Source of the DNA: an uncultured Dokdonia sp.
GTDB taxonomy: Bacteria > Bacteroidota > Bacteroidia > Flavobacteriales > Flavobacteriaceae
DNA length: 64,000 nt
NCBI RefSeq assembly: GCF_947492535.1
Contig: NZ_CANLNH010000003.1
Location: 1-64,000, forward strand
Reading direction: 5' to 3'
This document shows positions 27,398 to 62,781 of this stretch, in pieces. The translations under genes were made by a program, and so were the position numbers. Numbering within the stretch: position 1 is the stretch's first letter; each line of letters opens with the position of its first letter. Below the pieces are notes generated by a model. That model was not told where the DNA came from, did no database searches, and saw nothing but the letters and a program-made list of their open reading frames with translations.

Positions 27398-30300
27398 TTA
27401 TTCTTGTAATAAACTAATCAATGTTTCTTCTATATATGATGCTATATGGGCAATGGTTTTTAACTCAAATATTTTATTAAGCGGCATTTTAAATTCAAAA
27501 GTTTCATTAATTCTTGTAGTGATTTGGATAGCCATAAGTGATTCTCCGCCTAATTCAATAAAAGAATCATACACTCCAATTTTTGTTAGATTAAAAACAG
27601 AACACCAAATACTAGCCACTTCTTCTTCTATTTCATTTCTTGGGGCTATATATTCATGTGTACTTTGTACCGCTTCTGCATCTATAAGTGCCAATGCTTT
27701 TCTGTCTACCTTTCCATTAGGTGAAAGTGGAAGGTTTTCTAACTGTTTATAATACATCGGAACCATATATTTTGGTAACTTCTGACTAAGGAATTGTTGT
27801 AATTCTTTTAAGTCAACGACTGTTGTTACAGAGAAATATGCTGCTAAGCTTTTAAATCCTTCTTCATTTTTTGAAACGATAACAGTACATGCATTTATAG
27901 CGGTATAGGATAAAAGGCACGCCTCTATTTCTCCTAATTCAATTCTATATCCATTAATTTTCACCTGAAAATCGGTACGCCCTAAAAATTCAATAATCCC
28001 TTGATCATTAAGTCTTACAAGATCTTCTGTACGATATAGCGTAGTGTTGGGTTGGAAAGGGTTTTGAACAAACTTAGTACGGGTAAGTTCTGGTCTATTC
28101 CAATACCCGCTTGACAGCCCTGTTCCTCCTAGATATAGCTCTCCTATGACACCTTGTGGTACTGGATTTAGAAAACGATCTAGTATGTAGACCTGCATAT
28201 TACGAATAGGGAGTCCTATGGGAACACTAGCAGCTATGTCTATTTCAGAATTGAATTTATGATAGATACAACCTATCGTTGCTTCTGATGGTCCATATTC
28301 ATTGTAGATATGTACTTGATTATTGAAAGTACTGAGCATATCAATACCTAAAGCTGTTTTAAACTCATCACCAGTAACAACAATAACTTCAATTGCGCTG
28401 TGAGAAAGTTCTTTGTCCTTTATAAAATTTACATGGGCCGGTGTTAATTTGATAAAAGAAACTTTATTGTCTTCTACGACATCAATGATTGAAAGATCTA
28501 CTTCGGTATCACGTTCTTGATAGGCATGAATGCTTCCGCCACAAATAAGCGGGAGGAATACCGCATTTGCCGTAATATCAAAACCAACTGTTGTAAATAG
28601 GGGGATAGATGGTTTTTGAATATCATGTGCTGTGATGTATGCTTCTTTTGTCCACTGTATATAATTACTTAATGCACCATGTGTGATTTTAACTCCTTTT
28701 GGATGTCCAGTTGATCCTGAGGTATAAATCAAGAATGCTACTGTTTCTTTAGGAATCTTAATTAAAGGGTTTGTATTGCTATATGTAGAAAGTACCGTCG
28801 TGTCTAATGAATCAATAGAGAGCGTATTTACCTGAGAATCTTTAAGAACATTCAGTTGTTTGTCTTCATGTCCAATAAGTAACAAAGCCTCACTATCTGC
28901 TATCATATATGCAACTCTATCTATTGGATAGTTGTAGGGAATTGGGATATAGGTAGCACCAGTTTTAAGAACGGCAAGTACACTTATGATATATGCAGGA
29001 GAACGCTTAAGCCATATAGCAACTTGAGAGTTCACACCTATATTTTGTTCTAGTAGGTAATGCGCAAACTGATTTACTTTTTCATTGAGTTCTTGATACG
29101 TAATTATTTCTTCTCCAAAAACAATACTTGGTTCAAGAGGTGTTTTTACGACTTGTTGTTCTATCTGGCTTAGGATACTATCATAAGCAGTAGTGGCATC
29201 TATGTTTTGATGTAAAGCGCTAAATGTATTTTCTTGTTCTTGTTTACTTACGATAGAAGGTAGTGCTATAGCTTGTTCTTTATGAGTAATAAATGCATCT
29301 AAAAGCCTATTGAAATGTTGTGGTATTAATGCTTGTTTTTGGGTATCAAAAACATGATCATTCAGATCAAAATACAATTGAATCTCTCCAGTATTATGTA
29401 AATCGTGTACATGCAAGCGTATGTGATGCCTTGGGTCATGATGACCAGAATGTACCCATTCTGAACGTACAGGAACCCCATCAAAATCTGTGTAATCTGC
29501 ATGTATATAATTGAATAATACATTAAAACTTCTATGCGCATCTGATGTCGAAATACCGGGCTTAGCATGTTTTAGAAAGTGATTACTCTCTACTTGTATT
29601 TTTTGTAATAAGGAGAGGAATGTTTCTTCTTTATCAATAGTAGCAAACAGCGGGAATACCTCTACAAAGAAACCTACTGTTTCTTTGATTTTTTTTGATA
29701 TTCTATTATGTGTTGGAGAACCAATAGTTAATTGTTCTTGTCCACTTACTCTATATAAATAAACAAAGAGAGTCGTTAAGAATATATTGTATAAGGATAA
29801 GTGTTCCGTCCAGACACGAACTCCTTTTTCGTTAGCTAAAGCTCTTAATTTTTTAGATCGTTCAAGACCTAAATTTATATATAGTCGAGTGGATTCTGTA
29901 CCTATAGTGCTTTGAGGATTATTATATAAGTTTGGAGTAGGAGGGCAATTACTTATTTTTTGAGCCCAATACTCCTTAGCGGTATCATTTTTTGAGAGTG
30001 TTCTTTCTAATCTCTCTTGTTGTATATAAGCTTTAAACGAAGTCTCATTTTGTATTTCCGAGAGGTCTGCACCATTTTTATATTCTTGATAATAGTGTGT
30101 AATCGCAGAAAAAAGAAGGCTATTACTCCATGCATCTGTTATTAAGTGATGCTGATTGATATACCAGATATAATGTGATTTGTTCAATTTGATAAGTGCA
30201 CTATCTAGTACACTAACAGATATATTAAATGGTTTGATGATGCTAGCTTGTTGCCAATGCTTGTATGCCTGTATTGGGTTTTCTTCCTTAGAAAAATCAA

Positions 30301-30553
30301 TAATCTCAAGTTCATGCGTGTGCTCTTGTAAAAACACCTGTGTTGGTGTTCCTTCTTTTATTTGAAAAACAGATCGTAGTGCATCATATCTATTGATAAG
30401 CGCTTGGAAAGCCATCTTAAAATGTACTACCGATATTGGAACCTTTAACTCATAAGTCATCACCATATTATACATAGGAGATTCAGGATTCATTTCCTGT
30501 CCTATCCAAAGTAGTGATTGACTTTGTGTTAGAGATTCGTAGTTGTTTTTCAT
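27398..30553 (-). CDS. NRPS module C-A-PCP
   Basis: C: NQHHLITDAWS; A: FLIYTSGSTGHPKG, YNEYGPSEATIG, YRTEDLVR, GRTDFQVKINGYRIELGEIE, LPKYMVP, NGKVDRKAL; PCP: FIELGGESLMAIQI. Confidence 0.95.
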   Translation of the reverse strand: MKNNYESLTQSQSLLWIGQEMNPESPMYNMVMTYELKVPISVVHFKMAFQALINRYDALRSVFQIKEGTPTQVFLQEHTHELEIIDFSKEENPIQAYKHWQQASIIKPFNISVSVLDSALIKLNKSHYIWYINQHHLITDAWSNSLLFSAITHYYQEYKNGADLSEIQNETSFKAYIQQERLERTLSKNDTAKEYWAQKISNCPPTPNLYNNPQSTIGTESTRLYINLGLERSKKLRALANEKGVRVWTEHLSLYNIFLTTLFVYLYRVSGQEQLTIGSPTHNRISKKIKETVGFFVEVFPLFATIDKEETFLSLLQKIQVESNHFLKHAKPGISTSDAHRSFNVLFNYIHADYTDFDGVPVRSEWVHSGHHDPRHHIRLHVHDLHNTGEIQLYFDLNDHVFDTQKQALIPQHFNRLLDAFITHKEQAIALPSIVSKQEQENTFSALHQNIDATTAYDSILSQIEQQVVKTPLEPSIVFGEEIITYQELNEKVNQFAHYLLEQNIGVNSQVAIWLKRSPAYIISVLAVLKTGATYIPIPYNYPIDRVAYMIADSEALLLIGHEDKQLNVLKDSQVNTLSIDSLDTTVLSTYSNTNPLIKIPKETVAFLIYTSGSTGHPKGVKITHGALSNYIQWTKEAYITAHDIQKPSIPLFTTVGFDITANAVFLPLICGGSIHAYQERDTEVDLSIIDVVEDNKVSFIKLTPAHVNFIKDKELSHSAIEVIVVTGDEFKTALGIDMLSTFNNQVHIYNEYGPSEATIGCIYHKFNSEIDIAASVPIGLPIRNMQVYILDRFLNPVPQGVIGELYLGGTGLSSGYWNRPELTRTKFVQNPFQPNTTLYRTEDLVRLNDQGIIEFLGRTDFQVKINGYRIELGEIEACLLSYTAINACTVIVSKNEEGFKSLAAYFSVTTVVDLKELQQFLSQKLPKYMVPMYYKQLENLPLSPNGKVDRKALALIDAEAVQSTHEYIAPRNEIEEEVASIWCSVFNLTKIGVYDSFIELGGESLMAIQITTRINETFEFKMPLNKIFELKTIAHIASYIEETLISLLQE

Positions 30554-30824: not shown

Positions 30825-32390
30825 TTATGACGTTATTCGTTTTTCTATTTCTTTACGATTTATTTTTCCTGAAGCAGTTCTTGGGAACTGATGATATATG
30901 TCTATCTTATCGGGAATCGCATATACGGGTAATTTCTTTTGGCAATATGCCTTTAGTGCTTCTATATCAATTGTAGTATGTTGAGAAGGCAAAAGGATAG
31001 CAATAAGTTTTTTCTGCGTTGTTTTCACATCTGTAGTTACAATAGTAACAGCTTCTTCAATATCCGGATAGGAGGTAAGCACGCTTTCTATCTCTCCTAA
31101 TTCAATTCTATATCCTCTTATTTTTACTTGATGATCTTTTCTTCCTAAGAACCGTAACCTTCCTTCTTCGTCTTGACATACTTGATCTCCTGTTCTGTAA
31201 TAGATGTGTGGTGCACCAATGATGGTCTCATCTTTATAAAAAGAAGCTTGTGTTAAGGTTGGATTATTCCAATAGCCCTTCATCATAGTAGCAGAACGTA
31301 TCACAAGCTCTCCTGTATCACCATCTTGAACTTCTTGATCTTGTGTATCTATAATTTTAAATGCAGTATCTCCCCAAGTATATCCTATAGGAATAGGTGT
31401 ATCCTCTACAGGCGGTGTGTTAAGGTGGTAATAAGTACATTGATTGGTTTCTGTAGGCCCATATATATTGCTAAACGTAGCAAAAGACCAGCGCTTCATT
31501 AACGCTTGTAAATGCTTTGTAGCAAACACTTCTCCTGAGAATAACACCCATTTTAATGATGACATATCTCTTTGATCAAGATTTCCATGTGAAAGCATCT
31601 GTATTAATGCTAATGGCACAGAAAACCAAATCGTTATTTTTTCTTTTTCTATAAGTTCTGAAAGACTAGCAGGCATTTTTGTATGTGCATCAGAGACTAT
31701 AATTGTTGTCGCTAGTGCATAGGGTGCCGCATAATATCCTTGTACTGACGGATCAAAATGTAAAGGTGCATGCATTCCATAAATTGCATCTTGCATCTCA
31801 TACATGGATGCTGCAAGCTTTACAAAAGCCAATGCACTTGCATGTGTATGCATAATCCCTTTAGGCGTCCCTGTAGATCCTGACGTATATAAAATATACG
31901 CGAGATCATCTCCTAGTATATTTACAGGAGTTGATGGAACTAGCGAAACCTGAAAAATAGTTTCCCAAGAAATAGAAGTAGCATATGATACTTCTTGATG
32001 AATTCCTATAACAGACACCAAACCTACATCGCTAGAAAATTTCTTTAGCTTTCTTAATTGTTGCGGAATGCTAACAAGGTGTTTAATATTGCAATCTTGA
32101 CAAACAAACTCTATTCGTGATATTGGCGCAAAAGGATCTAACGGCACATATACTGCACCAGCTTTTAATACCCCATATATAGCAATAGTAGTCTCTAAAC
32201 ATCTAGGCATGTAAATCCCAATTCTGTCTCCTTTTTGAACTCCTTGGCTTATAAAATACTGCGCTAGTTGATCTGATTTTGTGTTTAATTCTGAAAACGT
32301 AATCGTATCATTTAGATATTTAAAAGCAATCTTCTCAGGTTGCTGCTTTGCGGCATTTTCTATAATATGTGGAAGTGTGTATACTAACAT
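30825..32390 (-). CDS. Stand-alone amino-acid adenylation domain (PltF/RedM-like)
   Basis: YILYTSGSTGTPKG; IWFSVPLALIQML; WVLFSGEVFATKHL; NIYGPTETNQCTYY; YRTGDQV; GRKDHQVKIRGYRIELGEIE. Confidence 0.85.
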   Translation of the reverse strand: MLVYTLPHIIENAAKQQPEKIAFKYLNDTITFSELNTKSDQLAQYFISQGVQKGDRIGIYMPRCLETTIAIYGVLKAGAVYVPLDPFAPISRIEFVCQDCNIKHLVSIPQQLRKLKKFSSDVGLVSVIGIHQEVSYATSISWETIFQVSLVPSTPVNILGDDLAYILYTSGSTGTPKGIMHTHASALAFVKLAASMYEMQDAIYGMHAPLHFDPSVQGYYAAPYALATTIIVSDAHTKMPASLSELIEKEKITIWFSVPLALIQMLSHGNLDQRDMSSLKWVLFSGEVFATKHLQALMKRWSFATFSNIYGPTETNQCTYYHLNTPPVEDTPIPIGYTWGDTAFKIIDTQDQEVQDGDTGELVIRSATMMKGYWNNPTLTQASFYKDETIIGAPHIYYRTGDQVCQDEEGRLRFLGRKDHQVKIRGYRIELGEIESVLTSYPDIEEAVTIVTTDVKTTQKKLIAILLPSQHTTIDIEALKAYCQKKLPVYAIPDKIDIYHQFPRTASGKINRKEIEKRITS

Positions 32391-32401
32391 ATATCTTTTT
32401 T

Positions 32402-32420
32402 TTACGCTTTCGCGAAAGCT
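32402..32420. repeat. Dispersed palindrome, copy 8 (TTACGCTTTCGCGAAAGCT), at end of ACAD gene
   Basis: Direct match; abuts the ACAD stop codon. Confidence 0.95.
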
Positions 32421-33571
32421 TATAGCCCAATAGTTTTAGCAATTATATTTCGTTGAATATCGGAGGTTCCTGCATAAATAACACCCCCGACGGCATCTCG
32501 TAAATCTCGTTCTACTTCATTTTCGGTTAAGTACCCATATCCACCATGATTCCTTATTGTATCGAGACTAGATGCAACAAAGCTTTCACTTATTTGTAAT
32601 TTGAGCATGGCTGATTCTAGCATCGCCGATTTCCCTTGGCTTTTTAACCAAGCTACTTTATATAATAAAAGACGTGAGGTTTCTAGACGTAATCTCATAT
32701 CTGCAATTCTGTTAGAAACCGATTGAAATTGCCCTACAGACTGCCCAAATTGCTTGCGTTGCTTTACATACGCTATAGATGCTTCTAGTTGACGCTCCAT
32801 TGCACCTATTTGACTTGCGTGTACACTACAACGATCTAATTCTAATGAGTGATTTGTAATACTCCAACCCGCACCTTCAGCTCCTAATCTATTTTCTTCT
32901 TTTACAAAGCAATCTGTGAATGTAAGATCACCAATAGGGACTGTACGTAAGCCCATTTTTGATTTATTAGGACTGGTTTCAAATCCTTCGGTTCCTTTTT
33001 CTACGATAAAAACAGAAAGCCCCCATTTACCTACTTTAGGATTTGTAACAGCAAATACTAATGCGATATCACAAACAGGACCTAATGTAATAAGGTGTTT
33101 CTTTCCATTAAGTAGATACCCACCTTCTACTTTGGTAGCGGTGGTTTGCATACTAAAAACATCAGAACCCGCTTCAGGTTCGGTAAGTGCATGACATGCA
33201 ATCCATTTTCCTGAAGTTAGTTTTGGTAAAAAGGTTTCCTTTTGAGCTTCTGTTCCAAAATGCGCGATAGGAAGCTGCACGGTCCATATTTGTGCATTCA
33301 TTGCAAAGGGTAACCCATTATCTCTACATCCATATCCCAACCCTTCCATGGCTAATATCGCAGACAGAATATCGATGTCTTTTGTATGGATACCATATTG
33401 TTTAGGAACCGATAAACTGAGCAAACCAAAATCTGCACACAGTTGCCAATTCTTCCTTGTAAATTCAAGTTGATGATCATTGGCAAGATGTGAATCATTC
33501 AATTTTGTTTCTGCAAAACTGATGACTTCATTCTTAAATTGTAGCTGTTCTTCTGTCCAAGAAAAATCCAA
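32420..33571 (-). CDS. Acyl-CoA dehydrogenase family flavoprotein, probable aminoacyl-PCP dehydrogenase (PltE/RedW-like)
   Basis: GLGYGCRDNGLPFAMNAQIW; ALTEPEAGSDVFSMQT; FGQSVGQFQSVSNRIADM; GGYGYLTENEVERDLRDAVGGVIYAGTSDIQRNIIA; directly upstream of stand-alone A and PCP on the same strand. Confidence 0.88.
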   Translation of the reverse strand: MDFSWTEEQLQFKNEVISFAETKLNDSHLANDHQLEFTRKNWQLCADFGLLSLSVPKQYGIHTKDIDILSAILAMEGLGYGCRDNGLPFAMNAQIWTVQLPIAHFGTEAQKETFLPKLTSGKWIACHALTEPEAGSDVFSMQTTATKVEGGYLLNGKKHLITLGPVCDIALVFAVTNPKVGKWGLSVFIVEKGTEGFETSPNKSKMGLRTVPIGDLTFTDCFVKEENRLGAEGAGWSITNHSLELDRCSVHASQIGAMERQLEASIAYVKQRKQFGQSVGQFQSVSNRIADMRLRLETSRLLLYKVAWLKSQGKSAMLESAMLKLQISESFVASSLDTIRNHGGYGYLTENEVERDLRDAVGGVIYAGTSDIQRNIIAKTIGL

Positions 33572-34164: not shown

Positions 34165-35394
34165 ATGAAAAAAATAATCACCCGTTTTCTTTTTGTTTTT
34201 ATACTGTTGAATTCTCTGTTTGCAAATGCGCATGCTCCAGAGCAAGGTTTTATATTTCTTAGAATTTATGAGTCTGATGGTATAGAAGGTCGATTTGAAA
34301 TACAAGCAGAAGACCTGAATAAAATTTTTAATTGGGAACTTCTTAAAGAAGGAAATAGCAGAGAGGTTATAGAACCTCTTTATAAGGAATTGAGAGCATA
34401 TTTACTCGAGCATTCGAGTTTCTCTTCATCTGCAGGGGCTCATAATGTCACATTTAAAGGGATAGATGTTTTATCCACAGGATTAGGAGATTATATACAG
34501 GTATTTTTTGATCTCGATAATGTAGATCCTCTTCCAGATACCATGGATGTTACTTATAATATTGCATTTAAAGAATCTCCTACACACAGAGGATTTCTTA
34601 CGATGGAGTATAATTGGAAAGCTGGTGTTATTAATAACGAGTCTAATATCTCATTATACTTTACACCAGATAGTCCTACAGATACATTAGATCTAACAAA
34701 GGTTTCTGTTTGGAAAGGATTTGTTGCGATGATCAAACAAGGAGTTTGGCATATATGGATTGGTACAGATCACATTTTCTTTTTAATTGCTCTTATACTA
34801 CCCGCAGTTGTATGGCGTAGACGTGATGAGAAATTATCACCTCTTAAGAGTTGGAAACCCGTGACTCGTTTTAAACCTGCTTTTTCATATATCATAAAAA
34901 TTGTAACATTTTTTACAATTGCACATACCATCACATTAAGTCTTGCTGCGTTACAAATTATTAGCTTACCAGGATGGATTGTAGAATCTATTATCGCTTT
35001 TTCTATTGGACTGGCAGCATTTCATAACATCAAACCTATTTTTAAAGGAAGAGATTGGGTAATTGCTTTTGTTTTTGGATTATTTCACGGATTTGGTTTT
35101 GCGAGTGTATTAGGAGATATAGGTCTTAAGGATGAATTTTTAGTGTATTCCCTTTTAGGATTTAATATTGGTGTAGAAATAGGTCAACTCGTTATCATCG
35201 CACTTATTTTTCCAATTCTATTTCTTATTAGAAATAGAAAATCATACCCAAAAATACTTGTTGGAGGATCTATCTTTTTAATTCTAGCTTCTATTTATTG
35301 GATCATAGAAAGAGTATTTGATGTAAACCTCGGAGTAGAAGATACGATTACCTATTGGTTATATGAGCTTGCTGTCAAACTTGGATTGAAATAA
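34165..35394 (+). CDS. HupE/UreJ family membrane protein
   Basis: HIWIGTDHIFFLIALILPAVVW; IAHTITLSLAALQII; VFGLFHGFGFASVLGDIGL. Confidence 0.85.
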   Translation: MKKIITRFLFVFILLNSLFANAHAPEQGFIFLRIYESDGIEGRFEIQAEDLNKIFNWELLKEGNSREVIEPLYKELRAYLLEHSSFSSSAGAHNVTFKGIDVLSTGLGDYIQVFFDLDNVDPLPDTMDVTYNIAFKESPTHRGFLTMEYNWKAGVINNESNISLYFTPDSPTDTLDLTKVSVWKGFVAMIKQGVWHIWIGTDHIFFLIALILPAVVWRRRDEKLSPLKSWKPVTRFKPAFSYIIKIVTFFTIAHTITLSLAALQIISLPGWIVESIIAFSIGLAAFHNIKPIFKGRDWVIAFVFGLFHGFGFASVLGDIGLKDEFLVYSLLGFNIGVEIGQLVIIALIFPILFLIRNRKSYPKILVGGSIFLILASIYWIIERVFDVNLGVEDTITYWLYELAVKLGLK

Positions 35395-35402
35395 AATCAT
35401 AA

Positions 35403-38354
35403 ATGAATACTACTGTGAAAAAAGAAAGCACATTCTCTTCTAAAGCGTCTTTATTATCTAGATGGAAAAATCGTGATAAGAAGGCTGTAGAAACGACTGA
35501 GATTACAAAAATACCAGAAGAGATTGCTGTGCCTTTATCTCGAGAACAAAAACGACTTTGGTTTTTACAGCAATTATTTCCGGATAATCCTTTTTATAAT
35601 TATTCTGAATTATACAGATTACAAGGCGATCTTCAAGTGTCCTTATTTGAAAAGAGTATACGTCTCATTGAAGACAAGCATGATATTCTACGTTCAAATT
35701 TCCAGGTAGAAGAAGGGGTTCCTAAAGTACATACAACACCTACCTCAAACTCGGTGTTTTCATATTATGATTTTAGTGACGCATCTTACGAAGTAGCATC
35801 TCAAAAAGCAGATGCGTTAATACGTACCCATGCAAGTCATACATTTCACCTTTCTGATGAAACCTTATTACAATCTACTGTTATAAAAGTTGCAGAGAAT
35901 GACTTTTTATTTTTAATAGTCATGCACCATATTATAACTGATAAGTGGTCTATGAAGGTTTTCCGAAAAGAACTAGCTGCACATTATGCCAGTCTAGTAA
36001 AAGGAATGACTCCAGATATAGAAAAACCTGAAATACAATACGCGAGCTATGCACATTGGCAAGGAAGTCAAGAAGTCAATAACAAACACCTGGACTATTG
36101 GAAGCAAAAGCTTTCAGGAGATTTGCCAACATTAAATCTACCTACCGATTATCCAAAAAAAGCACAACCCTCTTATAAAGGAACATTTCATAAGCAAGTA
36201 TATAGTGATCAAACATCCAAAGCCTTTTTTGATGCCTGTAAAAAACTAGAAGCAACTCCATATGTGACGATGCTTAGTATTTACTACGTTTTATTACAAA
36301 AATATGCTGGTCAAGAAGATATCTTGGTAGGTACGCCTATCACCAAAAGAGATCAGACGCGTTTAGAAAACCTTATCGGATTTTTTAATGACACCTTAGT
36401 CTTACGAACTAAAGTTGAGAAAGAAACTTCGTTTAGAGCATTGGTAAAAGAAGTTAAGAAAACTACCTTAGATGCTTTTTCTAATAAAGATATTTCTTTT
36501 GATACCCTAGTAAATACGCTAAAACCTACAAGGTCGCTAAGTGTGCATCCTTTCTTTCAAGTGATGTTTCTGTATCACAAAGTTCCAGAAACACCAACAT
36601 TAGGAGATGATATAAAAATCACTTATGAACCTTATGATGCAGGTGTTGCTAAATTTGATCTAACACTCTATATATCTGAAGACGAAGGTGCATTAATGTC
36701 GTTGATGGAATATGCAACAGATCTGTTTGATGCAACAACCATTGAGCGTATGCATACTCATTTTGAAAGAATTCTTACAACAGTAATTCAAAATCCTGAG
36801 GTGATTCTTTCAGAAATCGAAGTACAAACACCACAAGAAACACAGTTTTATACGACGTTAGAAGCTCCTGTACAAGAATATCAAATTCCACATCAGGGAA
36901 TTCATGAAATTATAACAGCTCAAGCATTACAGCAACCAGATGCTATCGCGGTTGCATTTAAAGATAAAAAAATCACCTATAAAGAGTTAAATGAGCGTGC
37001 AACACAAATTGCACATCAACTTTTAGAACAAGGCATTCAGAGAAATGATATTGTAGGGGTGTGTATTGAGCGTTCCGAACATATGATTATAGGACTGTTA
37101 GGAATTCTTAAAGCAGGCGCTGCATATCTTCCGCTCGATCCAGAGTACCCTTCAGATCGCATTTCGTATATTCTTAATAACGCTTTCGCGAAAGCGGTTA
37201 TCACCCAACAACATTTAGTAGTTAGCTTTGAAAATGTACCAGTACAAACGCTCACACTCGAAGCCATTTTAGAAACAAATCATGCTGAGGTGAATTTACC
37301 AAAAGTAGAGAGTAGTGATCTTGCGTATGTAATATATACCTCTGGAAGCACAGGAATGCCTAAAGGAGTTCCTATCACACATAAGAATATTATCAACTCT
37401 ACACTGTCCAGAACCGATTTTTATGGCTATGATCCTAAAGCATTTTTAGTGATGTCTTCGGTTTCTTTTGATAGTTCTAAAACAGGAATATTCTGGAGTT
37501 TATGTACAGGAGGGACCTTAGTGATATCAGAAAAACATCTAGAACAAGACATAGATCGTTTGGTACATACAATACATCAAAATAAGGTAACACATACGTT
37601 AATGCTCCCTTCATTATATACGCATATTGTAAACTATGGAGATGTAGAAAAACTTACTTCATTAGATACAGTGATTGTGGCTGGGGAAGCTTGTGCTACA
37701 CAACTTGCAAGGTTACACTTTGATACTTTACCTGAGGTGAAGTTATACAATGAATATGGCCCTACAGAAAGTACTGTATGGTGTATTGCACATCAATTAC
37801 AACCTTCAGATGCTAATGCAAATAGCATTCCTATTGGACGTCCTATTAAAAATATACAAGTATACATTCTAGATGATGATGCAAAGCGAGTTCCTTATGG
37901 TACTCCAGGTGAATTATATATAGGCGGTTTAGGACTTGCATCTGGATATTTGAATGATCCAGAGAAAACAGCACAAGCATTTACACAACACCCTTTTAAT
38001 ACAGATGTTACAAAACGTCTTTATAAAACAGGTGATATAGCCAAGTATAGAGCCGATGGTACGATAGAATTTTTAGGAAGGAAGGATCAACAAGTAAAAA
38101 TACGAGGGTATCGCATAGAACTTGATGAGATTGCAGAACAGATTAATATCGCCACAGGAGTACAACAAGCTATAGTCATGGTACAGAATGAAACAGACGC
38201 AATTGATTGGGAGACCTTAACGTCTGGGAATGCATCACAACTAGCAAACACCCTCACAAAATATATATCAAATACAGAAGTGCATCAGTTACTAGCTTCT
38301 ATAGAAACACTTCCAGAAGAAGCTATAGCAGTAATACTGGATACATTAGATTAA
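35403..38354 (+). CDS. NRPS C-A (A domain ends after motif A8; no A9/A10, no PCP)
   Basis: C: VMHHIITDKWS; A: YVIYTSGSTGMPKG, YNEYGPTESTVWC, GELYIGG, YKTGDIA, GRKDQQVKIRGYRIELDEIAEQ; then a tail without LPxYMVP/NGKxDR. Confidence 0.93.
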   Translation: MNTTVKKESTFSSKASLLSRWKNRDKKAVETTEITKIPEEIAVPLSREQKRLWFLQQLFPDNPFYNYSELYRLQGDLQVSLFEKSIRLIEDKHDILRSNFQVEEGVPKVHTTPTSNSVFSYYDFSDASYEVASQKADALIRTHASHTFHLSDETLLQSTVIKVAENDFLFLIVMHHIITDKWSMKVFRKELAAHYASLVKGMTPDIEKPEIQYASYAHWQGSQEVNNKHLDYWKQKLSGDLPTLNLPTDYPKKAQPSYKGTFHKQVYSDQTSKAFFDACKKLEATPYVTMLSIYYVLLQKYAGQEDILVGTPITKRDQTRLENLIGFFNDTLVLRTKVEKETSFRALVKEVKKTTLDAFSNKDISFDTLVNTLKPTRSLSVHPFFQVMFLYHKVPETPTLGDDIKITYEPYDAGVAKFDLTLYISEDEGALMSLMEYATDLFDATTIERMHTHFERILTTVIQNPEVILSEIEVQTPQETQFYTTLEAPVQEYQIPHQGIHEIITAQALQQPDAIAVAFKDKKITYKELNERATQIAHQLLEQGIQRNDIVGVCIERSEHMIIGLLGILKAGAAYLPLDPEYPSDRISYILNNAFAKAVITQQHLVVSFENVPVQTLTLEAILETNHAEVNLPKVESSDLAYVIYTSGSTGMPKGVPITHKNIINSTLSRTDFYGYDPKAFLVMSSVSFDSSKTGIFWSLCTGGTLVISEKHLEQDIDRLVHTIHQNKVTHTLMLPSLYTHIVNYGDVEKLTSLDTVIVAGEACATQLARLHFDTLPEVKLYNEYGPTESTVWCIAHQLQPSDANANSIPIGRPIKNIQVYILDDDAKRVPYGTPGELYIGGLGLASGYLNDPEKTAQAFTQHPFNTDVTKRLYKTGDIAKYRADGTIEFLGRKDQQVKIRGYRIELDEIAEQINIATGVQQAIVMVQNETDAIDWETLTSGNASQLANTLTKYISNTEVHQLLASIETLPEEAIAVILDTLD
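37179..37197. repeat. Dispersed palindrome, copy 9, in-frame in NRPS A domain (peptide NAFAKA)
   Basis: ACGCTTTCGCGAAAGCG; translation ISYILNNAFAKAVITQQHL. Confidence 0.95.
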
Positions 38355-38365
38355 AAATACAGATC

Positions 38366-39163
38366 ATGCGAAGAGTTAGAAGATCAGAAGGATACGAAGT
38401 ACAGCTTACTATAAAGGAGGAAAATTTTATAACCCCCCCTAGAGCTATTCAGCGATCTGCAGTAATTAATAGAGCACTCAAAGAATTTTCGGCAGATATA
38501 GAAGCGATAGATGAACAAGCAAAGCATTTTGTACCTGGAAATGTCGCTACTGAGATTAGAGAAATAAAAGATAGAACCCATACACAGCTTTCTGATCAAG
38601 AGATTATGGAAGATTGGCAAATACCACTTATGCAAGGTATGGCTGATGTGATTTGTGAGACTCAGGGTGATATTCTAGAAATAGGTTTTGGGCGCGGTAT
38701 TTCTTCAGATATGATTCAAGAACATCGTGTGAAATCTCATACAATTATTGAGTGTAATGACGCTGTAATCAATGATTACTTTCAAGAATGGAAAGAGAAG
38801 TTTACAGGAGCTGATATACGTATGGTAAAAGGCTTATGGCAAGATACAATAGATGACTTAGGATTATTTGATGGGATATTTTTTCATACCTATCCATTAA
38901 ACGAAGAGGAGTATATGAAGTATGTCCAGGAGAGTATCACATTTGCAGAGCACTTCTTCCCGTATGCATCTAGTCATCTTAATCCAGGAGGATCATTTAC
39001 ATATTTTTCTAATGAGATAGATTCATTAAGTAGAGAGCATCAACGATTATTACTAAAACACTTTTCATCGTTTAGTATTCAAATCGTTGATCTTACCATG
39101 CCAGAAGATGTAAAAGACATCTGGTGGGCAAATTCAATTGTAGTTGTAAAAGCAATAAAGTAA
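38366..39163 (+). CDS. Stand-alone SAM methyltransferase, guanidinoacetate N-methyltransferase (GAMT/RMT2)-like
   Basis: GDILEIGFGRGISSDMIQ (SAM motif I), HTIIECNDAVINDYFQEW, VKGLWQDTIDDLGLFDGIFFHTYPLNEEEYMKY. ATG at 38366 preferred over ORF start 38207. Confidence 0.82.
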   Translation: MRRVRRSEGYEVQLTIKEENFITPPRAIQRSAVINRALKEFSADIEAIDEQAKHFVPGNVATEIREIKDRTHTQLSDQEIMEDWQIPLMQGMADVICETQGDILEIGFGRGISSDMIQEHRVKSHTIIECNDAVINDYFQEWKEKFTGADIRMVKGLWQDTIDDLGLFDGIFFHTYPLNEEEYMKYVQESITFAEHFFPYASSHLNPGGSFTYFSNEIDSLSREHQRLLLKHFSSFSIQIVDLTMPEDVKDIWWANSIVVVKAIK

Positions 39164-41355
39164 TGGTAGGAAATATAGAAGACAGAATAGAAGCATTAAG
39201 CCCAAAAGGGAAAAAGCTGTTATTGCTTAAAGCGAAAGAAGCCATTGCAATGCAAACTAAAAATGAAACGACCTCAGGTCGTAAGCGTATTGTTGCTTAT
39301 GTGCAAGGAAGTGATCCGTTTTCGGCAGATCAATTAAGAAAAGAGCTTCAAAGCAAACTCCCTGATTATATGGTGCCGTCACAGTTTGTTCCTGTAGCCC
39401 ATATGCCAGTATTACCTAATGGGAAAATAGATAGAAAACAATTACGTACTGCATCTATAACAACATCGCCAGCATCTATTTCAAATGATGCAACTAAGAG
39501 TGTTTCTAATAAAACAGAACAACAATTACTTACAATTTGGGAAGAAGTACTTGGTTTTTCTCCCATTCACAAAGAAGATAACTTTTTTGAAATAGGAGGG
39601 GATTCTATTTTGAGTATTCAAATTATCGCCAAAGCAAGAAAAGAAGGTGTTGTATTACAATCTAATGCATTGTTTGAGCATCAAACCATTGCAGAGTTAT
39701 GTCTTTTTGCAGAAACTCTTCAAAATAACGATACTTCTGTTGAAGAAAAACTCATTACAATATGGGAAGAGACACTTGGTTTTTCTCCTATTCATAAAGA
39801 TGATAATTTCTTTGAGATAGGCGGAGATTCAATATTAAGCATTCAGATTATAGCAAAGGCTAGAAAGGAAGGAATTATTCTCGAATCTAATCACATATTT
39901 GAACACCAGACGATTGCTGAGTTATCGCTTTTCGCGAAAGCGGAAACAAAAGAATTTAAAAACGAATTGTTACAAGGAGTGGTCTCTTTATCTCCTATAC
40001 AACAGTGGTTTTTTGACGATCATAAAAATGCACCTCATTATTGGAATCAAGGCATTCGGTTAGATGCACTAGCTGCTTTTTCAGAGAAGCAATTACAAAT
40101 AGTGTGCGATTATATGATTATCCAACATGATACATTGCGATCTCGATTTAGACTCGAAGATGATACATGGATTCAGGATATAGGAAAGCCAGAACAAATT
40201 TTTGCATTAGAATATGTGGATTGTACAGGAGTTGCTCCAGAAAACTATGAGCAAGTAGCATCCCAACATATGCAGCGTGTTCAAGATGCCTTTATCTTAT
40301 CTGAAGGGTCTTTATTTAAGTGTCTCTATTTTAATACAGGGAATGCGACTGCAAATTTCTGCCTACTTATTGCACATCACTTAATTGTAGATGCGGTGTC
40401 TTGGCAAATTATTACAGACGATTTTATAAGTGCTTTACAACAGGTAGCGATAACGGAAAGTATTAAAAAAGAACCAAAAACTAATTCCATAACCGAATGG
40501 AATACATATCTCCAGACGTATGTAGATACGATAACTACTAATGAACTTGATTTTTGGAAGTCTCAAATAACACCTGTAGCAGCCTTACCTTTTGATAAAG
40601 AAGATCATACAGTGATTGAAGAAAAAGACATTGTACAACTTCATTTCACATTAGATAAAGAGGTTACTAAGGGGGTACAGGAAGCAAATCAAGCCTATAA
40701 TACAAAGATAGAAGAACTGCTTATTACTGCATTTGTAGCAGCTATAAGTACGTGGAGTCAGCAAAATGAAGTCGCTATTGGTTTTGAAAGACATGGTAGA
40801 GAAACTGCAGAATCACAACTCGATGTGTCTAAAACAGTAGGATGGTTTACTTCTTATTTTCCAGTAAAATTTGCTCACACATCCTATCATGATTTAGAAA
40901 GCCAAATAGTATCAGTAAAAGAAAAAATGCGAAGCATTCCCAATGGAGGTATAGGATACGGTGCATTACGCTATCTCAAAAATACATTTGGAGCTATTGG
41001 AAATCCTGAGATTGTATTTAATTTTTTAGGAACTAAAACCACTTCTACAGCCGATCATGGAATTATAGTGACACCGCTCTCTGAAAACCTTAGAGACTTA
41101 CGAAGTGAGCGTCATTATAAATTAGAAATAAATGTACAGATTATTGATGAACAATTATATGGTAGCTGTAGTTATGGAAGTACTGTACACTCATCTGAAA
41201 CAATTAAACTATTAATGAATGACTTTAAAGAACGTATTCAAGAGATTGGTACGTATTGTAACCAAATAGAAAATGGTGGGTATACTCCTTCTGATTTTTC
41301 TGATGCAGAGATAAGTCAAGATGATTTGGATAGTCTGCTCGACTTTTTAGAATAA
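39163..41355 (+). CDS. NRPS: A-domain C-terminal subdomain (A9/A10) - PCP - PCP - epimerization domain
   Basis: Start ATG overlaps MT stop (TAATG). RIVAYVQGSDPFSADQLRKELQSKLPDYMVPSQFVPVAHMPVLPNGKIDRKQL; two FFEIGGDSILSIQIIAKARKEG; E: AHHLIVDAVSWQII, FERHGRE, TVGWFTSYFPV, GGIGYGALRYL, PEIVFNFLG. Confidence 0.93.
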   Translation: MVGNIEDRIEALSPKGKKLLLLKAKEAIAMQTKNETTSGRKRIVAYVQGSDPFSADQLRKELQSKLPDYMVPSQFVPVAHMPVLPNGKIDRKQLRTASITTSPASISNDATKSVSNKTEQQLLTIWEEVLGFSPIHKEDNFFEIGGDSILSIQIIAKARKEGVVLQSNALFEHQTIAELCLFAETLQNNDTSVEEKLITIWEETLGFSPIHKDDNFFEIGGDSILSIQIIAKARKEGIILESNHIFEHQTIAELSLFAKAETKEFKNELLQGVVSLSPIQQWFFDDHKNAPHYWNQGIRLDALAAFSEKQLQIVCDYMIIQHDTLRSRFRLEDDTWIQDIGKPEQIFALEYVDCTGVAPENYEQVASQHMQRVQDAFILSEGSLFKCLYFNTGNATANFCLLIAHHLIVDAVSWQIITDDFISALQQVAITESIKKEPKTNSITEWNTYLQTYVDTITTNELDFWKSQITPVAALPFDKEDHTVIEEKDIVQLHFTLDKEVTKGVQEANQAYNTKIEELLITAFVAAISTWSQQNEVAIGFERHGRETAESQLDVSKTVGWFTSYFPVKFAHTSYHDLESQIVSVKEKMRSIPNGGIGYGALRYLKNTFGAIGNPEIVFNFLGTKTTSTADHGIIVTPLSENLRDLRSERHYKLEINVQIIDEQLYGSCSYGSTVHSSETIKLLMNDFKERIQEIGTYCNQIENGGYTPSDFSDAEISQDDLDSLLDFLE
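39926..39942. repeat. Dispersed palindrome, copy 10, in-frame in PCP-E linker (peptide LFAKAE)
   Basis: CGCTTTTCGCGAAAGCG; translation ELSLFAKAETKEF. Confidence 0.93.
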
Positions 41356-41397: not shown

Positions 41398-43824
41398 ATG
41401 GAAACAACAATCAAAAAACCTAAAATAGATGCGATCTACCCGCTTACAGCTATGCAACAAGGGTTACTTTTCCATCACTTAACAGAGGGAGAAGACCAAG
41501 GCTTTTTGACTGTTCAGTGTGTGATTGATGGAAATCTAGATATAGACGTATTTAAACAAGCGTGGAAAACAGTTACAAAGCGTCATGAAGTCATGCGTAC
41601 TTCTGTACACTGGAAAAAGGTAGAACGCCCAGTACTTTTGGTACGACCAGAAAAAGAAATTCAGTGGTCATTTTTGGATTGGAGAGATCAACCTATAGAA
41701 GAACAAGGGGTATCGCTAGAGGCGTATAAAAAAGAACGAAAAGATCTTGGGGTTGCATTTGAAGAAAATCCTCTTTCTAGAATAACTGTTATTCAAAAAG
41801 CAACAGATAGCTATTATCTGGTATGGGAATGTCATCATCTATTATTAGATGGGTGGTCATCTACTATTATTTTAAAAGATGCGTTTGCCTATTATGGAAG
41901 TTTATCTTCGGGAACATCACCACAATTACCAACGATACCAAATTATAAATCATATAGAAATTGGTTAAAGGCAAATACATCAGATAGCGCAGCAAATTTT
42001 TGGGAAACTACTTTTGACAACTTTACAAAAGCGTCTTTATTTCAACAAAGTACAGCACAGTCATTGGGAAAAAGCCCTACGACATATACAAATAAGTTTA
42101 CAGAACAAACCTCTAATGATTTAAAAAAACTAGCTAAATATTATAAAGTAACGCTTAATACATTATTTCAAGGAATTTGGTCATTAGCACTTGCTAAGTG
42201 TTTTAATACCAAAGATGTGACGTTTGGAACGACAGTTTCTGGACGTTCTATCCCGTTCCCAAATATAGAACGTATGGCAGGAATGTTTGCCAATGTACTT
42301 CCCGTACGTACGCTTTTTGATGTTTCCCATTCATTCCAATCCTGTTTACAGGAATTGCAGTCTCAGCAGCAAGAAGCACGTAACTATGAATATTGTAAAA
42401 TAGATGAGATTGTTTCGTGGGCAAATGTGCCTGAAGATCAACCTTTATTTGATAATTTATTTGTTTTTGAAAATTTTCCTTGGGAAGATATTTCCAGTGG
42501 TGATCTTACGGTGAGTGGTTTTGAAAGTGGTATCACTACGACCTATCCTTTGACCGTAATTTTTAAAATAGAAGATTGTATTCAGTATGATATATTAGTA
42601 AATACCGATGTGATTCCAACCTCTATCATAGAGTGGTTTCTCAATGTGATCCCTACGATAGCAGTCACCTTACTTTTAAATAAAGATACTTCAGTAAATG
42701 ATGCCTTGCAACAAATTCAAATAATTCCTAGTGCGCTTTCGCGAAAGCGTATACTGGATGACTTACAAGTTCAAGAAGATTTTGAAAAGAAAGAAACAAC
42801 CTATGTCGCTCCTAGAAATAAAGTGGAATTAACACTGGTTGAAATCTGGGAACAGCTTTTTGGTATGAATTATATAAGTATTACCGATAGTTTTTTCCAT
42901 TTGGGCGGGAAGTCATTATTGTCTGTCAAAATGTTTGTGCTTATAGAGGAAAAATTAGGAGTTAAATTATCTCCAACTACATTGTTGGAATCACCTACTA
43001 TTCAAGCATTAGCAGAAGTTATTAATACCAAAGGGGATACAGATACCGTAGCGTGGAAATACTTAGTTCCTATCAAAACAAAAGGAGAAAAAGCACCTTT
43101 GTTTTGTATTCATGCAGGAGGAGGTCACGTGTTTTTTTATAAAAGTTTGGCAGATGCTGTAGATGCGCAAAGACCTGTATATGCATTACAACCTGTAGGG
43201 ATTTTCGGGGAAGATAATAAGCACCAAAGTATTGAGGAGATGGCAAGAGATTATGCAGATGAGATCAGTCTTGTACAACCGGAAGGAACTTTGAATATAG
43301 TAGTTTATTGTTTTAGTACAGCAGTAGGATTAGAAATGGTAGCTCATTTAAAATCTAAAGGAAGAAATGCACATCTTATTGTAGCAGATACCATCGCTGA
43401 ACATCGATTATTGTTCAATAAAGAACGATTGGTTATTAGAACTACAGCATTTTTAAAACGTTTTTTCTCAAACCCTTTCAAAGCATTATATGCAATGATT
43501 GGATTTAGAGTGATGTTCTATTTAAAACCTTTGCGTGTAAAGCTTTTTGGAAATGAAGCCGAAAAGAACACCGAAAAGATGCGATTACATCTCGTTGATT
43601 TATTTACTGCCTACCAATGGAATACCAATATTGATAATGTATCTCTTGTTCTTACAGAAAAAGGAGATGATCATTATAATAATGAGATTGTACGCTCATG
43701 GAAACCTTTAGTACTAGGCGAAATTGATGTAAAAACCACCAAAGGACAACATGCTACATTTTTTGAAGATCCTGATGTACTATATACAGCACAGGCTATG
43801 GATGAAGTAATTGTAGAAAACTAA
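41398..43824 (+). CDS. NRPS C-PCP-TE terminal module lacking an A domain
   Basis: C: YPLTAMQQGLLFHHL, ECHHLLLDGWSS; PCP: SFFHLGGKSLLSVKM; TE: LFCIHAGGGHVFFYKSLAD, VVYCFSTAVGLEMVAHL, GQHATFF. Confidence 0.92.
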   Translation: METTIKKPKIDAIYPLTAMQQGLLFHHLTEGEDQGFLTVQCVIDGNLDIDVFKQAWKTVTKRHEVMRTSVHWKKVERPVLLVRPEKEIQWSFLDWRDQPIEEQGVSLEAYKKERKDLGVAFEENPLSRITVIQKATDSYYLVWECHHLLLDGWSSTIILKDAFAYYGSLSSGTSPQLPTIPNYKSYRNWLKANTSDSAANFWETTFDNFTKASLFQQSTAQSLGKSPTTYTNKFTEQTSNDLKKLAKYYKVTLNTLFQGIWSLALAKCFNTKDVTFGTTVSGRSIPFPNIERMAGMFANVLPVRTLFDVSHSFQSCLQELQSQQQEARNYEYCKIDEIVSWANVPEDQPLFDNLFVFENFPWEDISSGDLTVSGFESGITTTYPLTVIFKIEDCIQYDILVNTDVIPTSIIEWFLNVIPTIAVTLLLNKDTSVNDALQQIQIIPSALSRKRILDDLQVQEDFEKKETTYVAPRNKVELTLVEIWEQLFGMNYISITDSFFHLGGKSLLSVKMFVLIEEKLGVKLSPTTLLESPTIQALAEVINTKGDTDTVAWKYLVPIKTKGEKAPLFCIHAGGGHVFFYKSLADAVDAQRPVYALQPVGIFGEDNKHQSIEEMARDYADEISLVQPEGTLNIVVYCFSTAVGLEMVAHLKSKGRNAHLIVADTIAEHRLLFNKERLVIRTTAFLKRFFSNPFKALYAMIGFRVMFYLKPLRVKLFGNEAEKNTEKMRLHLVDLFTAYQWNTNIDNVSLVLTEKGDDHYNNEIVRSWKPLVLGEIDVKTTKGQHATFFEDPDVLYTAQAMDEVIVEN
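42733..42752. repeat. Dispersed palindrome, copy 11, in-frame at C-PCP junction (peptide ALSRKRI)
   Basis: GCGCTTTCGCGAAAGCGTAT; translation IIPSALSRKRILDDLQ. Confidence 0.95.
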
Positions 43825-43829
43825 ACAGT

Positions 43830-44552
43830 ATGTGGACTGCTTTTTCAAATAAAGACCTCTCTTTGCCATCAGATCAATTACATCTTTGGTCTGTGTGCAA
43901 AAACATGCATGAAGATAGAATATCTACCTATTGGGATATTCTTAACGCTACAGAAAGAGAGAGAGCATTGAAGTTTAGATTTCAAAAAGATCGCTCTTGT
44001 TTTATCATTGCAAGAGGGGTGTTGAGAATGCTATTAGGAAATTATTTAGGAATAGCTCCAGCGCACATTGAGTTTCAGTTTGGTCCTAACGGAAAGCCTT
44101 ATGTGATACATTCTAACGATATAAAGTTTAATATCTCACATTCTGGAGATACTATAATATTAGGATTTATTAAAAAGCATCGTATAGGAGTAGATGTAGA
44201 ATATACCAAGAGAGAAGTAGATGTTAAAAAAATTGCAGAACACTTTTTCTCTGAAGAAGAGGTACGTTCCCTATTTGCACTAGATCAAGACTATCATACC
44301 CAAGCTTTTTATAATTGCTGGACGCGAAAGGAAGCCTTTATAAAAGCAGTAGGAAGCGGACTCGCATTTCCGCTAGATCAATTTGTAGTGAGTTTGGAAT
44401 CTACCAAAGAAGCAACGCTTATAGATACAAAATGGGATAAAGAAGAAAAAGAAAAATGGATGTTACATGCTATTGAACCTAGAAAAGATTATATCGGAGC
44501 TGTTTCTGTAAAAGGAAATGTAGCGGGTATTACCTCATGGAGTTATCAATAG
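43830..44552 (+). CDS. 4'-phosphopantetheinyl transferase, Sfp type
   Basis: GPNGKPYV...FNISHSGD; GVDVEYTKREVDVKKIAEHFFSEEEV; FYNCWTRKEAFIKAVGSGLAFPLDQF. Confidence 0.93.
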   Translation: MWTAFSNKDLSLPSDQLHLWSVCKNMHEDRISTYWDILNATERERALKFRFQKDRSCFIIARGVLRMLLGNYLGIAPAHIEFQFGPNGKPYVIHSNDIKFNISHSGDTIILGFIKKHRIGVDVEYTKREVDVKKIAEHFFSEEEVRSLFALDQDYHTQAFYNCWTRKEAFIKAVGSGLAFPLDQFVVSLESTKEATLIDTKWDKEEKEKWMLHAIEPRKDYIGAVSVKGNVAGITSWSYQ

Positions 44553-44579: not shown

Positions 44580-45422
44580 ATGAAATTGACAGAAACACAA
44601 ATAAATGACTATCGTGAAAATGGATTTCTCATCGTTGATGGGATATTTACAGAAGCAGAAGTACAAGGCATACGAGATGGAATTCATAAAATAGATGATA
44701 AGCCTATGCCCAACATCATTAGAGAAGAAAATGGTGCGATACGCTCTGTTTTTGCACCGCAAACGATTAGAGAAGAGTTTAACTGGTTATATAAACAAGA
44801 ACGATTAGTAACTCCCACGCAACAGTTACTAAATGATCCTTCTATATATCTCTATCAGTATAAGCTTAATAATAAAAAAGCCTTTGATGGCGGAATCTGG
44901 GAATGGCATCAGGATTATCCGTTCTGGCATATAGATGACGGTGTAAAAGATGCAAACATGCTTTCTGTAATGGTATTGCTACAAGATACTGATCATGCGC
45001 AAGGACCTTTGATGTTTATTCCTAAATCTCATAAAACAGGTATTGCAGATTTTCAGTATAAAGCGCATTTAACAGGAGAGAATGTAGACTTGGAAAACTC
45101 TTTGAATGGGGATTTAAAATTTACCATTAAAAATGAATTAATAAAAAAAATGGTAGATCAAGATGGAATTCAACCAGGTATTGGAAAGATAGGAACTGCT
45201 ATCTTTTTTCACCCTAATGTATATCATGGTTCTAATGCAAATATTTCTCCTTATGATAGAAATACAGCTATTATGACCTACAATGTAACTTCTAATTTAC
45301 CAGAAGATAGAAAAGAAAAAAATAGACCTGATTATATCTGTTTAAGAGATACAACTCCTATTCAACCTGATAATCGATCTATACACGAAATCATTGAAAG
45401 AACACCTGTAAACGTATCTTGA
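44580..45422 (+). CDS. Phytanoyl-CoA dioxygenase (PhyH)-family Fe(II)/2OG hydroxylase
   Basis: YRENGFLIVDGIFTEAEV; WEWHQDYPFW (HxD); GPLMFIPKSHK; FHPNVYHGSNANISPYDRNTAIMTYN. Confidence 0.88.
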   Translation: MKLTETQINDYRENGFLIVDGIFTEAEVQGIRDGIHKIDDKPMPNIIREENGAIRSVFAPQTIREEFNWLYKQERLVTPTQQLLNDPSIYLYQYKLNNKKAFDGGIWEWHQDYPFWHIDDGVKDANMLSVMVLLQDTDHAQGPLMFIPKSHKTGIADFQYKAHLTGENVDLENSLNGDLKFTIKNELIKKMVDQDGIQPGIGKIGTAIFFHPNVYHGSNANISPYDRNTAIMTYNVTSNLPEDRKEKNRPDYICLRDTTPIQPDNRSIHEIIERTPVNVS

Positions 45423-45448: not shown

Positions 45449-47002
45449 TTGAGTCAATTAAAAAAAGCAGCCTTACTTTCTTATATCAATCTTGGGATTT
45501 CCAATATTGTTGGGATTGTGATGACTCCTTTTATCGTAAGAATGCTTGGAGATTCAGAATATGGATTGTTTGCACTTATTGGAGCATTTGTTGGGTACTT
45601 ATCTATATTAGATTTAGGTTTAACCAATGCTGTTGTGCGATTTGTTGCTCAATATAGAGCGCAACAAGATGATAAAGGACAAGAAAACTTCTTAGCCGTA
45701 AGTCTTATTATCTATTCTGCTATAAGTAGTGTTGTTGTCATTTTAGGAATAGTAATGTACCTTAATGTTGATGCTTTATTTGGCGATACCTTAACGCTAG
45801 ATCAAATGAGCAAAGCAAAGATTATGTTATTGATTTTTATCTTTAATATAGCGATTGCATTGCCAGGAGGTGCTTTTACAGGAATCTGTAATGGATATGA
45901 ACACTTTGTTTTCCCACGAGTATTAACTATTTGTAAATATGTAATCAGGGCATTGCTGATAGTTGTCATTCTGTACAGAGGTGCAGATGCATTGGGATTA
46001 GTGATTTTAGATAGCATATTAAATGTAGCATTTATAGTGGCGACCGTCTATTATGTATTTACAAAACTTAAGGTAAGGATCAAGTTACACAGTTTTAATA
46101 CTAAATTTTTAAAAGAAATCTTCAGTTACTCCATTTGGATTTTTGTATTTGGGATGGTATACCAGTTTCAATGGCGGACAGGTCAAGTGATCCTTGGAGC
46201 AACGACAAGTACTGTTGTTGTCGCGATTTATGCAGTTGGAGTTACACTTGGGTTATATTTTCTAACATTTGGTAATGTCATTAATGGACTTGTGTTGCCT
46301 AAAGCAGTGCAATCTATTTATAAAAATAACAGTACAGCACTTCTTACGGCAGAGATGATACGCATTTCAAGAATTACTATGATCATACTCTTTTATATAC
46401 TGGGAGGTTTCTTAATCTTGGGACAAGAGTTTGTTATTTTATGGGTAGGAGAGACGTATAAAGATGCGTGGCTTGTTGCATTACTTATTATGATAGCTTA
46501 TGTAATGCCTATATCACAAGGATATGCTCACGCTATTTTAGAGGCTAAAAAACTTATGCGATTTAAGTCGTTATCGTCTTTAATATTGACCATTATTGGG
46601 ATCATAGTAGGAGGTTATTTATCTACATTATATGGACTCAAAGGAATTATTTATGGAATTTTTGGAGCACTTATCATACTTCAAGTCATGGTGTTGTGCT
46701 ATTACCAATTTAAGTTAGGGTTGGATATGAAACAATACTTTACAAAGGCCTTGTTTCCATACCTACTTTTATTCATTCCTGTGTGTTTGATCTCATATTA
46801 TATATTTCAACCTTTGGAAATAGGATGGGGGTTCTTTATCCTAAAAGGAATCTTATATACCCTATTCTTTGTGATTGGAGTGTATATGCTCCTAAGTAAA
46901 ACAGAGCGCACATTTCTAATGGGAATTTTTCTGGGTACGCTTTCGCGAAAGCGTATAAAGTCTATTCCTACTATAAAAAAAACGTCTAGCCATGAGAATT
47001 AA
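45449..47002 (+). CDS. Polysaccharide flippase, Wzx/MATE-like
   Basis: ~12-14 TM; GISNIVGIVMTPFIVRMLGDSEYGLFALIGAFVGYLSILDLGLTNAVVRFVAQYRA. TTG start. Confidence 0.88.
   Translation: MSQLKKAALLSYINLGISNIVGIVMTPFIVRMLGDSEYGLFALIGAFVGYLSILDLGLTNAVVRFVAQYRAQQDDKGQENFLAVSLIIYSAISSVVVILGIVMYLNVDALFGDTLTLDQMSKAKIMLLIFIFNIAIALPGGAFTGICNGYEHFVFPRVLTICKYVIRALLIVVILYRGADALGLVILDSILNVAFIVATVYYVFTKLKVRIKLHSFNTKFLKEIFSYSIWIFVFGMVYQFQWRTGQVILGATTSTVVVAIYAVGVTLGLYFLTFGNVINGLVLPKAVQSIYKNNSTALLTAEMIRISRITMIILFYILGGFLILGQEFVILWVGETYKDAWLVALLIMIAYVMPISQGYAHAILEAKKLMRFKSLSSLILTIIGIIVGGYLSTLYGLKGIIYGIFGALIILQVMVLCYYQFKLGLDMKQYFTKALFPYLLLFIPVCLISYYIFQPLEIGWGFFILKGILYTLFFVIGVYMLLSKTERTFLMGIFLGTLSRKRIKSIPTIKKTSSHEN
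46936..46956. repeat. Dispersed palindrome, copy 12 (perfect), in-frame near C-terminus of flippase (peptide TLSRKRI)
   Basis: TACGCTTTCGCGAAAGCGTAT; translation FLGTLSRKRIKSIP. Confidence 0.97.
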
Positions 47003-47993: not shown

Positions 47994-47994
47994 C

Positions 47995-52418: not shown

Positions 52419-52425
52419 AGGTATC

Positions 52426-54635: not shown

Positions 54636-54638
54636 GCG

Positions 54639-56620: not shown

Positions 56621-56739
56621 AGCAATGGTCAATTATTCCTTTTAAAACCTATTTTTTCCGTTTCACATTCTTTTATAATGTATAGTGCATTGATGTGAAG
56701 TTTATTTGTAATATAAATTAGAGTGAATATCATCCAGTG

Positions 56740-57900: not shown

Positions 57901-57912
57901 ATAAAATATCCT

Positions 57913-57957
57913 GAGTACGCTTTCGCGAACCTGTCTGCCGGCAGGCAGGAGCGTATA
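57913..57957. repeat. Dispersed palindrome, copy 14, interrupted by a 20-bp palindrome
   Basis: GAGTACGCTTTCGCGAA-CCTGTCTGCCGGCAGGCAGG-AGCGTATA. Confidence 0.95.
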
Positions 57958-58012
57958 AAGAAACAATCATAAAGCAATCATAAATATCATATCAATCAAC
58001 CCACACCCGATC

Positions 58013-58852: not shown

Positions 58853-58874
58853 CCCACGTAGATTAAAAAAAGAT

Positions 58875-61232: not shown

Positions 61233-61297
61233 GTAGTCCTCTTCACAGATTATTGATACAATACTCAGTGAAGGATTTATAAAAACAAACGGTAATT

Positions 61298-62778: not shown

Positions 62779-62781
62779 GTG

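Follow-up and report, generated by a model that had tools for sequence, protein, structure and literature searches.

The window, by which we mean the whole 64,000-nt stretch analyzed here, comes from an uncultured Dokdonia sp. and carries an NRPS module whose adenylation (A) domain is encoded in pieces by three consecutive ORFs on the plus strand. As delimited by Pfam and by alignment of the pocket code, ORF1 (35403..38354, 983 aa) contains a C domain followed by A′, which spans motifs A1-A8 and the first strand of the small C-terminal subdomain (A_sub), and it ends in a helical tail ~55 residues past the A8 strand region. Pfam Condensation and AMP-binding were matched in this protein, while AMP-binding_C and PP-binding were unmatched. 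ORF2 (38366..39163, 265 aa) encodes a free-standing GAMT-like SAM methyltransferase (MT) with an N-terminal hairpin-plus-helix extension, identified using phmmer, a family profile and AF2/Foldseek, and its SAM motif, DILEIGFGRG, is intact. ORF3 (39163..41355, 730 aa) begins with a ~40-aa head that holds a conserved helix motif and continues with A″, the A9-A10 portion including the A10 lysine (KRIVAYV, LPDYMVP and NGKIDRK). Two PCPs are next (Pfam PP-binding, twice), and the last domain is a C-family domain (Pfam Condensation) of the E type, as indicated by the HHLIVDAVSW motif and a TIGR01720 match. The tandem PCPs are near-identical (39520-40000), and several relatives have a single PCP.

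The TAA of ORF1 and the ATG of ORF2 (38366) are 11 nt apart, and the ATG of ORF3 (39163) lies within a TAATG that overlaps the ORF2 stop. All three frames differ (start positions modulo 3 of 0, 2 and 1). Thus no A-MT-A arrangement is found on one polypeptide in the window, since three ORFs encode it, and the MT is located between A8 and A9 by gene order. The anatomy given in the preliminary description is borne out by Pfam, TIGR01720 and the sequence itself, namely a C-A protein which stops after A8 without A9/A10 or PCP, a complete methyltransferase, a third protein opening with the missing A tail before PCP-PCP-E, and the junctions and three frames as listed above.

Downstream on the same strand, ORF4 (41398..43824) encodes C-PCP-TE according to Pfam and is the next step of the line. 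Since ORF4 has no A domain, its PCP must be loaded in trans. The following gene (43830..44552, plus strand; Pfam ACPS) encodes a 4′-phosphopantetheinyl transferase that would prime the PCPs. Directly 5′ of ORF1 is a gene for a HupE/UreJ-type membrane protein (34165..35394, plus strand; Pfam HupE_UreJ_2), and the Flavobacteriaceae regions examined (L011-L019) also have a HupE-like ORF ahead of C-A′. A TonB-dependent receptor is also encoded near the NRPS genes (24410-26716). Given the HupE/UreJ-type protein kept upstream and this receptor, a histidine-containing product might act as a metallophore. Immediately after the NRPS genes, a PhyH-type dioxygenase (44580-45422) could hydroxylate the product, and a large exopolysaccharide cluster lies directly downstream (45449-63738; glycosyltransferases, EpsG, Wzz and MBOAT).

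Two other A domains are encoded in the window, both on the minus strand: an unsplit one within a C-A-PCP NRPS module (27398..30553; Pfam), which served as an internal comparison, and an intact stand-alone adenylation enzyme (30825..32390; Pfam). Because AMP-binding_C is intact in both, the split is specific to the ORF1-ORF3 module. The stand-alone enzyme is encoded beside an acyl-CoA dehydrogenase-like enzyme (32420..33571, minus strand; Pfam), and the two may be the source of a proline-derived unit. In relatives, an ornithine cyclodeaminase-like gene is added beside these two; none is present in the window's own genome. We considered 2,3-diaminopropionate as a substrate and dropped it, as the relatives' gene scores far below the SbnB cut-off and has ornithine cyclodeaminase as its best match, and as the window's own genome lacks such a gene.

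We searched 300 genomes sampled from the same family as the window and found the MT at 62-77% identity in eight further genomes, with one more retaining the MT ends only. The three-ORF layout is the same in the fetched regions of all eight, where the gene order is HupE-like gene, C-A′, MT, A″-PCP, C-PCP-TE and PPTase, with A′, MT and A″ as separate ORFs. One region differs further along, as its ORF3 (L016:9860-11212) is shortened to 450 aa with a TE-like end, the E and next C domains apparently missing. The MT of Dokdonia pacifica is 94% identical and has the same kind of junctions. A wider scan of one genome per species, using a profile built from nine MTs, yielded 62 loci, of which 48 have the A′-MT-A″ order on one strand; with the window this makes 49. 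They come from about ten phyla (Bacteroidota, Cyanobacteriota, Planctomycetota, Verrucomicrobiota, Pseudomonadota, Gemmatimonadota, Acidobacteriota, Rhodothermota, Calditrichota and Hydrogenedentota), and outside Bacteroidota many of them derive from metagenome assemblies.

None of the 49 loci, window included, has A″ inside the ORF of the MT, which stops only a few residues past the end of the MT fold. A′ and MT form one ORF in 10 of the 49, and the MT is free in the remainder (L073 is doubtful, as its MT region looks frameshifted). In Bacteroidota each of the three parts has its own ORF, while several other phyla have A′ and MT fused and hence two ORFs. On the tree, a well supported branch (98/94) sets most of the free-MT rows apart, and the state changes three times. 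The preliminary description proposed that fused and split versions be sought in relatives, and held that indels fusing the ORFs or uniformly fused homologs would speak against it; the split was kept, and neither was seen among the 49 loci.

In 35 of 50 loci (the 49 plus L019), the A″ start and the MT stop share 1 or 4 nt, which fits coupled translation. Gaps of about 30 to 250 nt separate the two in L048, L051, L061 and L067, and in four loci (L046, L053, L056 and L071) A″ is in frame with the MT and the stop is retained. In a Phycisphaeraceae MAG (L050:201-4191), A′-MT and A″-PCP-TE lie on opposite strands and converge, separated by a G+C-rich repeat able to form a hairpin.

The common layout of the eight family genomes and the junctions of D. 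pacifica exclude a sequencing indel as the cause of the split. Although such errors are common in NRPS genes, and a few short-contig loci (L045, L047 and L073) do look frameshifted or truncated, there is next to no chance that an assembly error or a freshly broken gene has cut one A-MT-A protein by frameshifts, given identical junctions in many independent genomes, named strains among them (D. pacifica, Leptobacterium flavescens, Kriegella aquimaris, Algibacter luteus and Arenibacter amylolyticus), the conservation of all three parts, the opposite strands of L050 and a split conserved across genera, on which we rejected it.

Programmed frameshifting or stop readthrough could likewise yield a single polypeptide, and the close spacing of the ORFs, their −1 and −4 nt overlaps (TAATG, ATGA) and the in-frame A″ behind the stop in L046, L053, L056 and L071 speak in its favor. 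However, the stop is retained in each in-frame case, four loci have the gaps listed above, a start codon and a head motif of its own are found in every A″, and the opposite strands rule out readthrough at L050. We consider this explanation highly improbable, and frameshift or readthrough fusion was rejected as a general rule on the gaps, the L050 arrangement and the retained stops.

The small subdomain of an ordinary A domain includes a hairpin made of the strand that follows A8 and the KRIVAYV strand, and MTs inserted into A domains occupy the loop of that A_sub hairpin (PMC8949500, PMC11355689). ORF1 runs ~55 residues beyond the first hairpin strand, and the same tail serves as the linker in A′-MT fusions. 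ORF3 starts ~40 residues ahead of the second strand, and an alignment of 50 loci revealed a recurrent head pattern, RI..LS.....LL...L. The helix motifs at both new termini, the ORF1 end and the ORF3 start, are conserved, and we regard them as putative docking pieces. The AF2 model of a natural A′-MT fusion (L054) has a confident A core, while the strand that would pair with A″ is unformed, with a drop in confidence there; this is suggestive only, but is as expected if A″ is needed.

The split A domains have a near-invariant pocket code in our alignment, DSA[M/C/G/L/S/V/T]IAEVWK, from which few depart. A survey of A-domain codes lists DSALIAEVWK among histidine-activating domains (PMC12283262). 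ORF1, with DSTMIAEVWK, agrees with it at 8 of 10 positions, and most relatives, with DSA[M/C/G]IAEVWK, agree at 9 of 10. The uniformity of the code over many phyla argues for one substrate, and L-histidine is a well-supported prediction that draws on the published code list. Compared by code only, the split domains have nearly the same pocket as the listed histidine domains (PMC12283262), and differ from them in being split and MT-associated.

The precedents for this anatomy are of two kinds. TioS, KtzH and McyA carry an MT between A8 and A9, the same insertion site and domain order as here, but are single polypeptides, which none of the 49 loci is (0/49). The preliminary description noted that interrupted A domains such as those of thiocoraline/kutzneride-type NRPSs are single polypeptides; a split A domain nevertheless has a precedent in the A2 domain of corallorazine synthesis, which is cut after A8 so that Crz1 ends with the MT and Crz2 carries A9-A10 (PMC11342130). 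This glycine A domain was inactive alone and became active when Crz1.2 and Crz2 were mixed in vitro in 2024, and it was presented as the first report of a split A domain and called unique (PMC11342130). Similar to the window, Crz1/Crz2 has the cut after A8, the MT at the cut, and A9-A10 opening the next ORF before a T domain (PMC11342130). In contrast, Crz consists of two pieces with the MT fused to A′ and has T-TD next, whereas the window has three pieces with a free-standing MT and PCP-PCP-E next; the Crz domain is specific for glycine and that of the window has a histidine code (PMC11342130). Fusion of the MT to the C-terminus of A′, as in Crz1, is absent from the window and present in about ten loci of other phyla. 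The two MTs, annotated nMT in Crz and GAMT-like here, are compared by description only. Thus, the split-A principle is already known (PMC11342130), and the new elements here are the three-protein form, a GAMT-like MT paired with a histidine code, and how broadly and strictly the split is kept.

If A′ were dead and A″ a relic, the ORF3 PCP could be loaded by a different enzyme, either the C-A-PCP module or the stand-alone A enzyme; other NRPSs are known to load PCPs in trans (reviewed in PMC8949500), and a stand-alone A enzyme is indeed encoded nearby. A dead domain, however, would keep neither a pocket code that is near-invariant across phyla nor the A10 lysine motif, which 48 of the 50 A″ pieces retain, and the Crz halves are active on mixing (PMC11342130). 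Loss of A′ function therefore strikes us as improbable. A trans-assembling interrupted A domain, as the preliminary description proposed, is the best explanation of a split conserved in 49 loci, with assembly itself being what we infer from that conservation.

The MT is not of the thiocoraline/kutzneride type that the preliminary description drew on for comparison. ORF2 matched GAMT 1xcj at 3e-22 (phmmer), the MT family profile matched 3orh at 4e-30, and the AF2 model of ORF2 (pLDDT 90) had GAMT as its top Foldseek match (3.7e-14). The only close solved relatives of the MT are guanidinoacetate N-methyltransferases. Methyltransf_12, the usual NRPS methylation family, was listed for 0 of 50 MT members at E 0.01, the matches being to generic MT domains. 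While the MT core thus finds its best sequence and fold match in GAMT (1xcj, 3orh), it differs in an extra N-terminal hairpin and helix, in its tie to an NRPS and in its pocket. The acidic GAMT residues E45 and D134, which bind guanidinium, align with Gln85 and His174 of ORF2. His174 with Gln85 (Leu in 5) occurs in all 52 rows beside a His-type A′, and the Glu/Asp pair occurs in only 4 rows, all without a His-type A′ alongside. GAMT-like MTs that keep Glu/Asp, with no split His-type A domain nearby, were seen at L072:7839-8762, L076, L078 and L080. Because the Glu/Asp to Gln/His swap follows phylogeny, it counts as one correlated event rather than many. The simplest reading of the swap is that the acceptor changed from guanidinium to a neutral group, for instance imidazole, and an imidazole nitrogen is the most likely predicted site of methylation.

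It is possible, though we doubt it, that the A domain is split as proposed and the MT acts on a backbone nitrogen or a later intermediate instead of the histidine side chain. MTs in the A8-A9 slot are mostly backbone N-MTs (PMC8949500, PMC11355689). Against this, the MT here is GAMT-like and without a Methyltransf_12 listing in any member, and its pocket changes track the histidine code.

A natural deletion bears on the role of methylation. In L019 (G248), the catalytic core of the MT has been lost by an in-frame deletion; what is left is an ORF of 87 codons made up of the MT ends (9639-9902), and A′, A″ and an ATGA overlap remain. Retention of A′ and A″ without the MT core indicates that methylation is not indispensable, and adenylation may not need MT catalysis. 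Judged against A′, the N-terminal part of the remnant evolves faster than it should (−2.2 sd), which makes a role for its protein, as a scaffold, doubtful; the remnant may be decaying, or may be kept only for translational coupling. No other such remnants were seen among 400 family genomes.

Taken together, we consider it quite probable that the locus encodes a histidine-specific A domain assembled in trans and, associated with it, a histidine MT. The ORF1, ORF2 and ORF3 proteins would together form one adenylation domain in trans. ORF1 would contribute the A core with the A8 hinge, plus one of the strands of the small C-terminal subdomain; the matching strand, A9 and the A10 lysine would come from ORF3, where they are already linked to the PCP to be loaded. 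The cut lies in the hairpin loop where MTs are normally inserted, and ORF2 would be that MT in free-standing form, which we expect to find at the junction. The assembled enzyme would adenylate L-histidine and load the ORF3 PCP(s), the GAMT-like MT would methylate histidine, most likely on an imidazole nitrogen, and the E domain would then yield the D form for ORF4.

On this reading, methylated histidine would be made by way of an NRPS; the literature searched, with the Lundy et al. 2020 catalogue of interrupted A domains outside it, yielded no description of such a route and no paper on methylhistidine MT domains of NRPSs. NRPSs are annotated and engineered on the view that A domains are indivisible. 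A natural cut in the small subdomain, with the MT sometimes a third subunit, would offer ready-made split points and docking pieces, and modules that look broken in annotation would possibly be whole. The loci described here show that the split-A principle is widespread, compared with a single characterized case called unique (PMC11342130). More broadly, and with about even odds in our judgment, they may represent an ancient, obligately split family in which a His-specific A domain with a GAMT-like MT has never been found joined to A9-A10 across about ten phyla. The MT of Bacteroidota would then be a third separable subunit, and activation, methylation and carrier loading would be the work of an exchangeable three-subunit complex, not of a fixed assembly-line domain.
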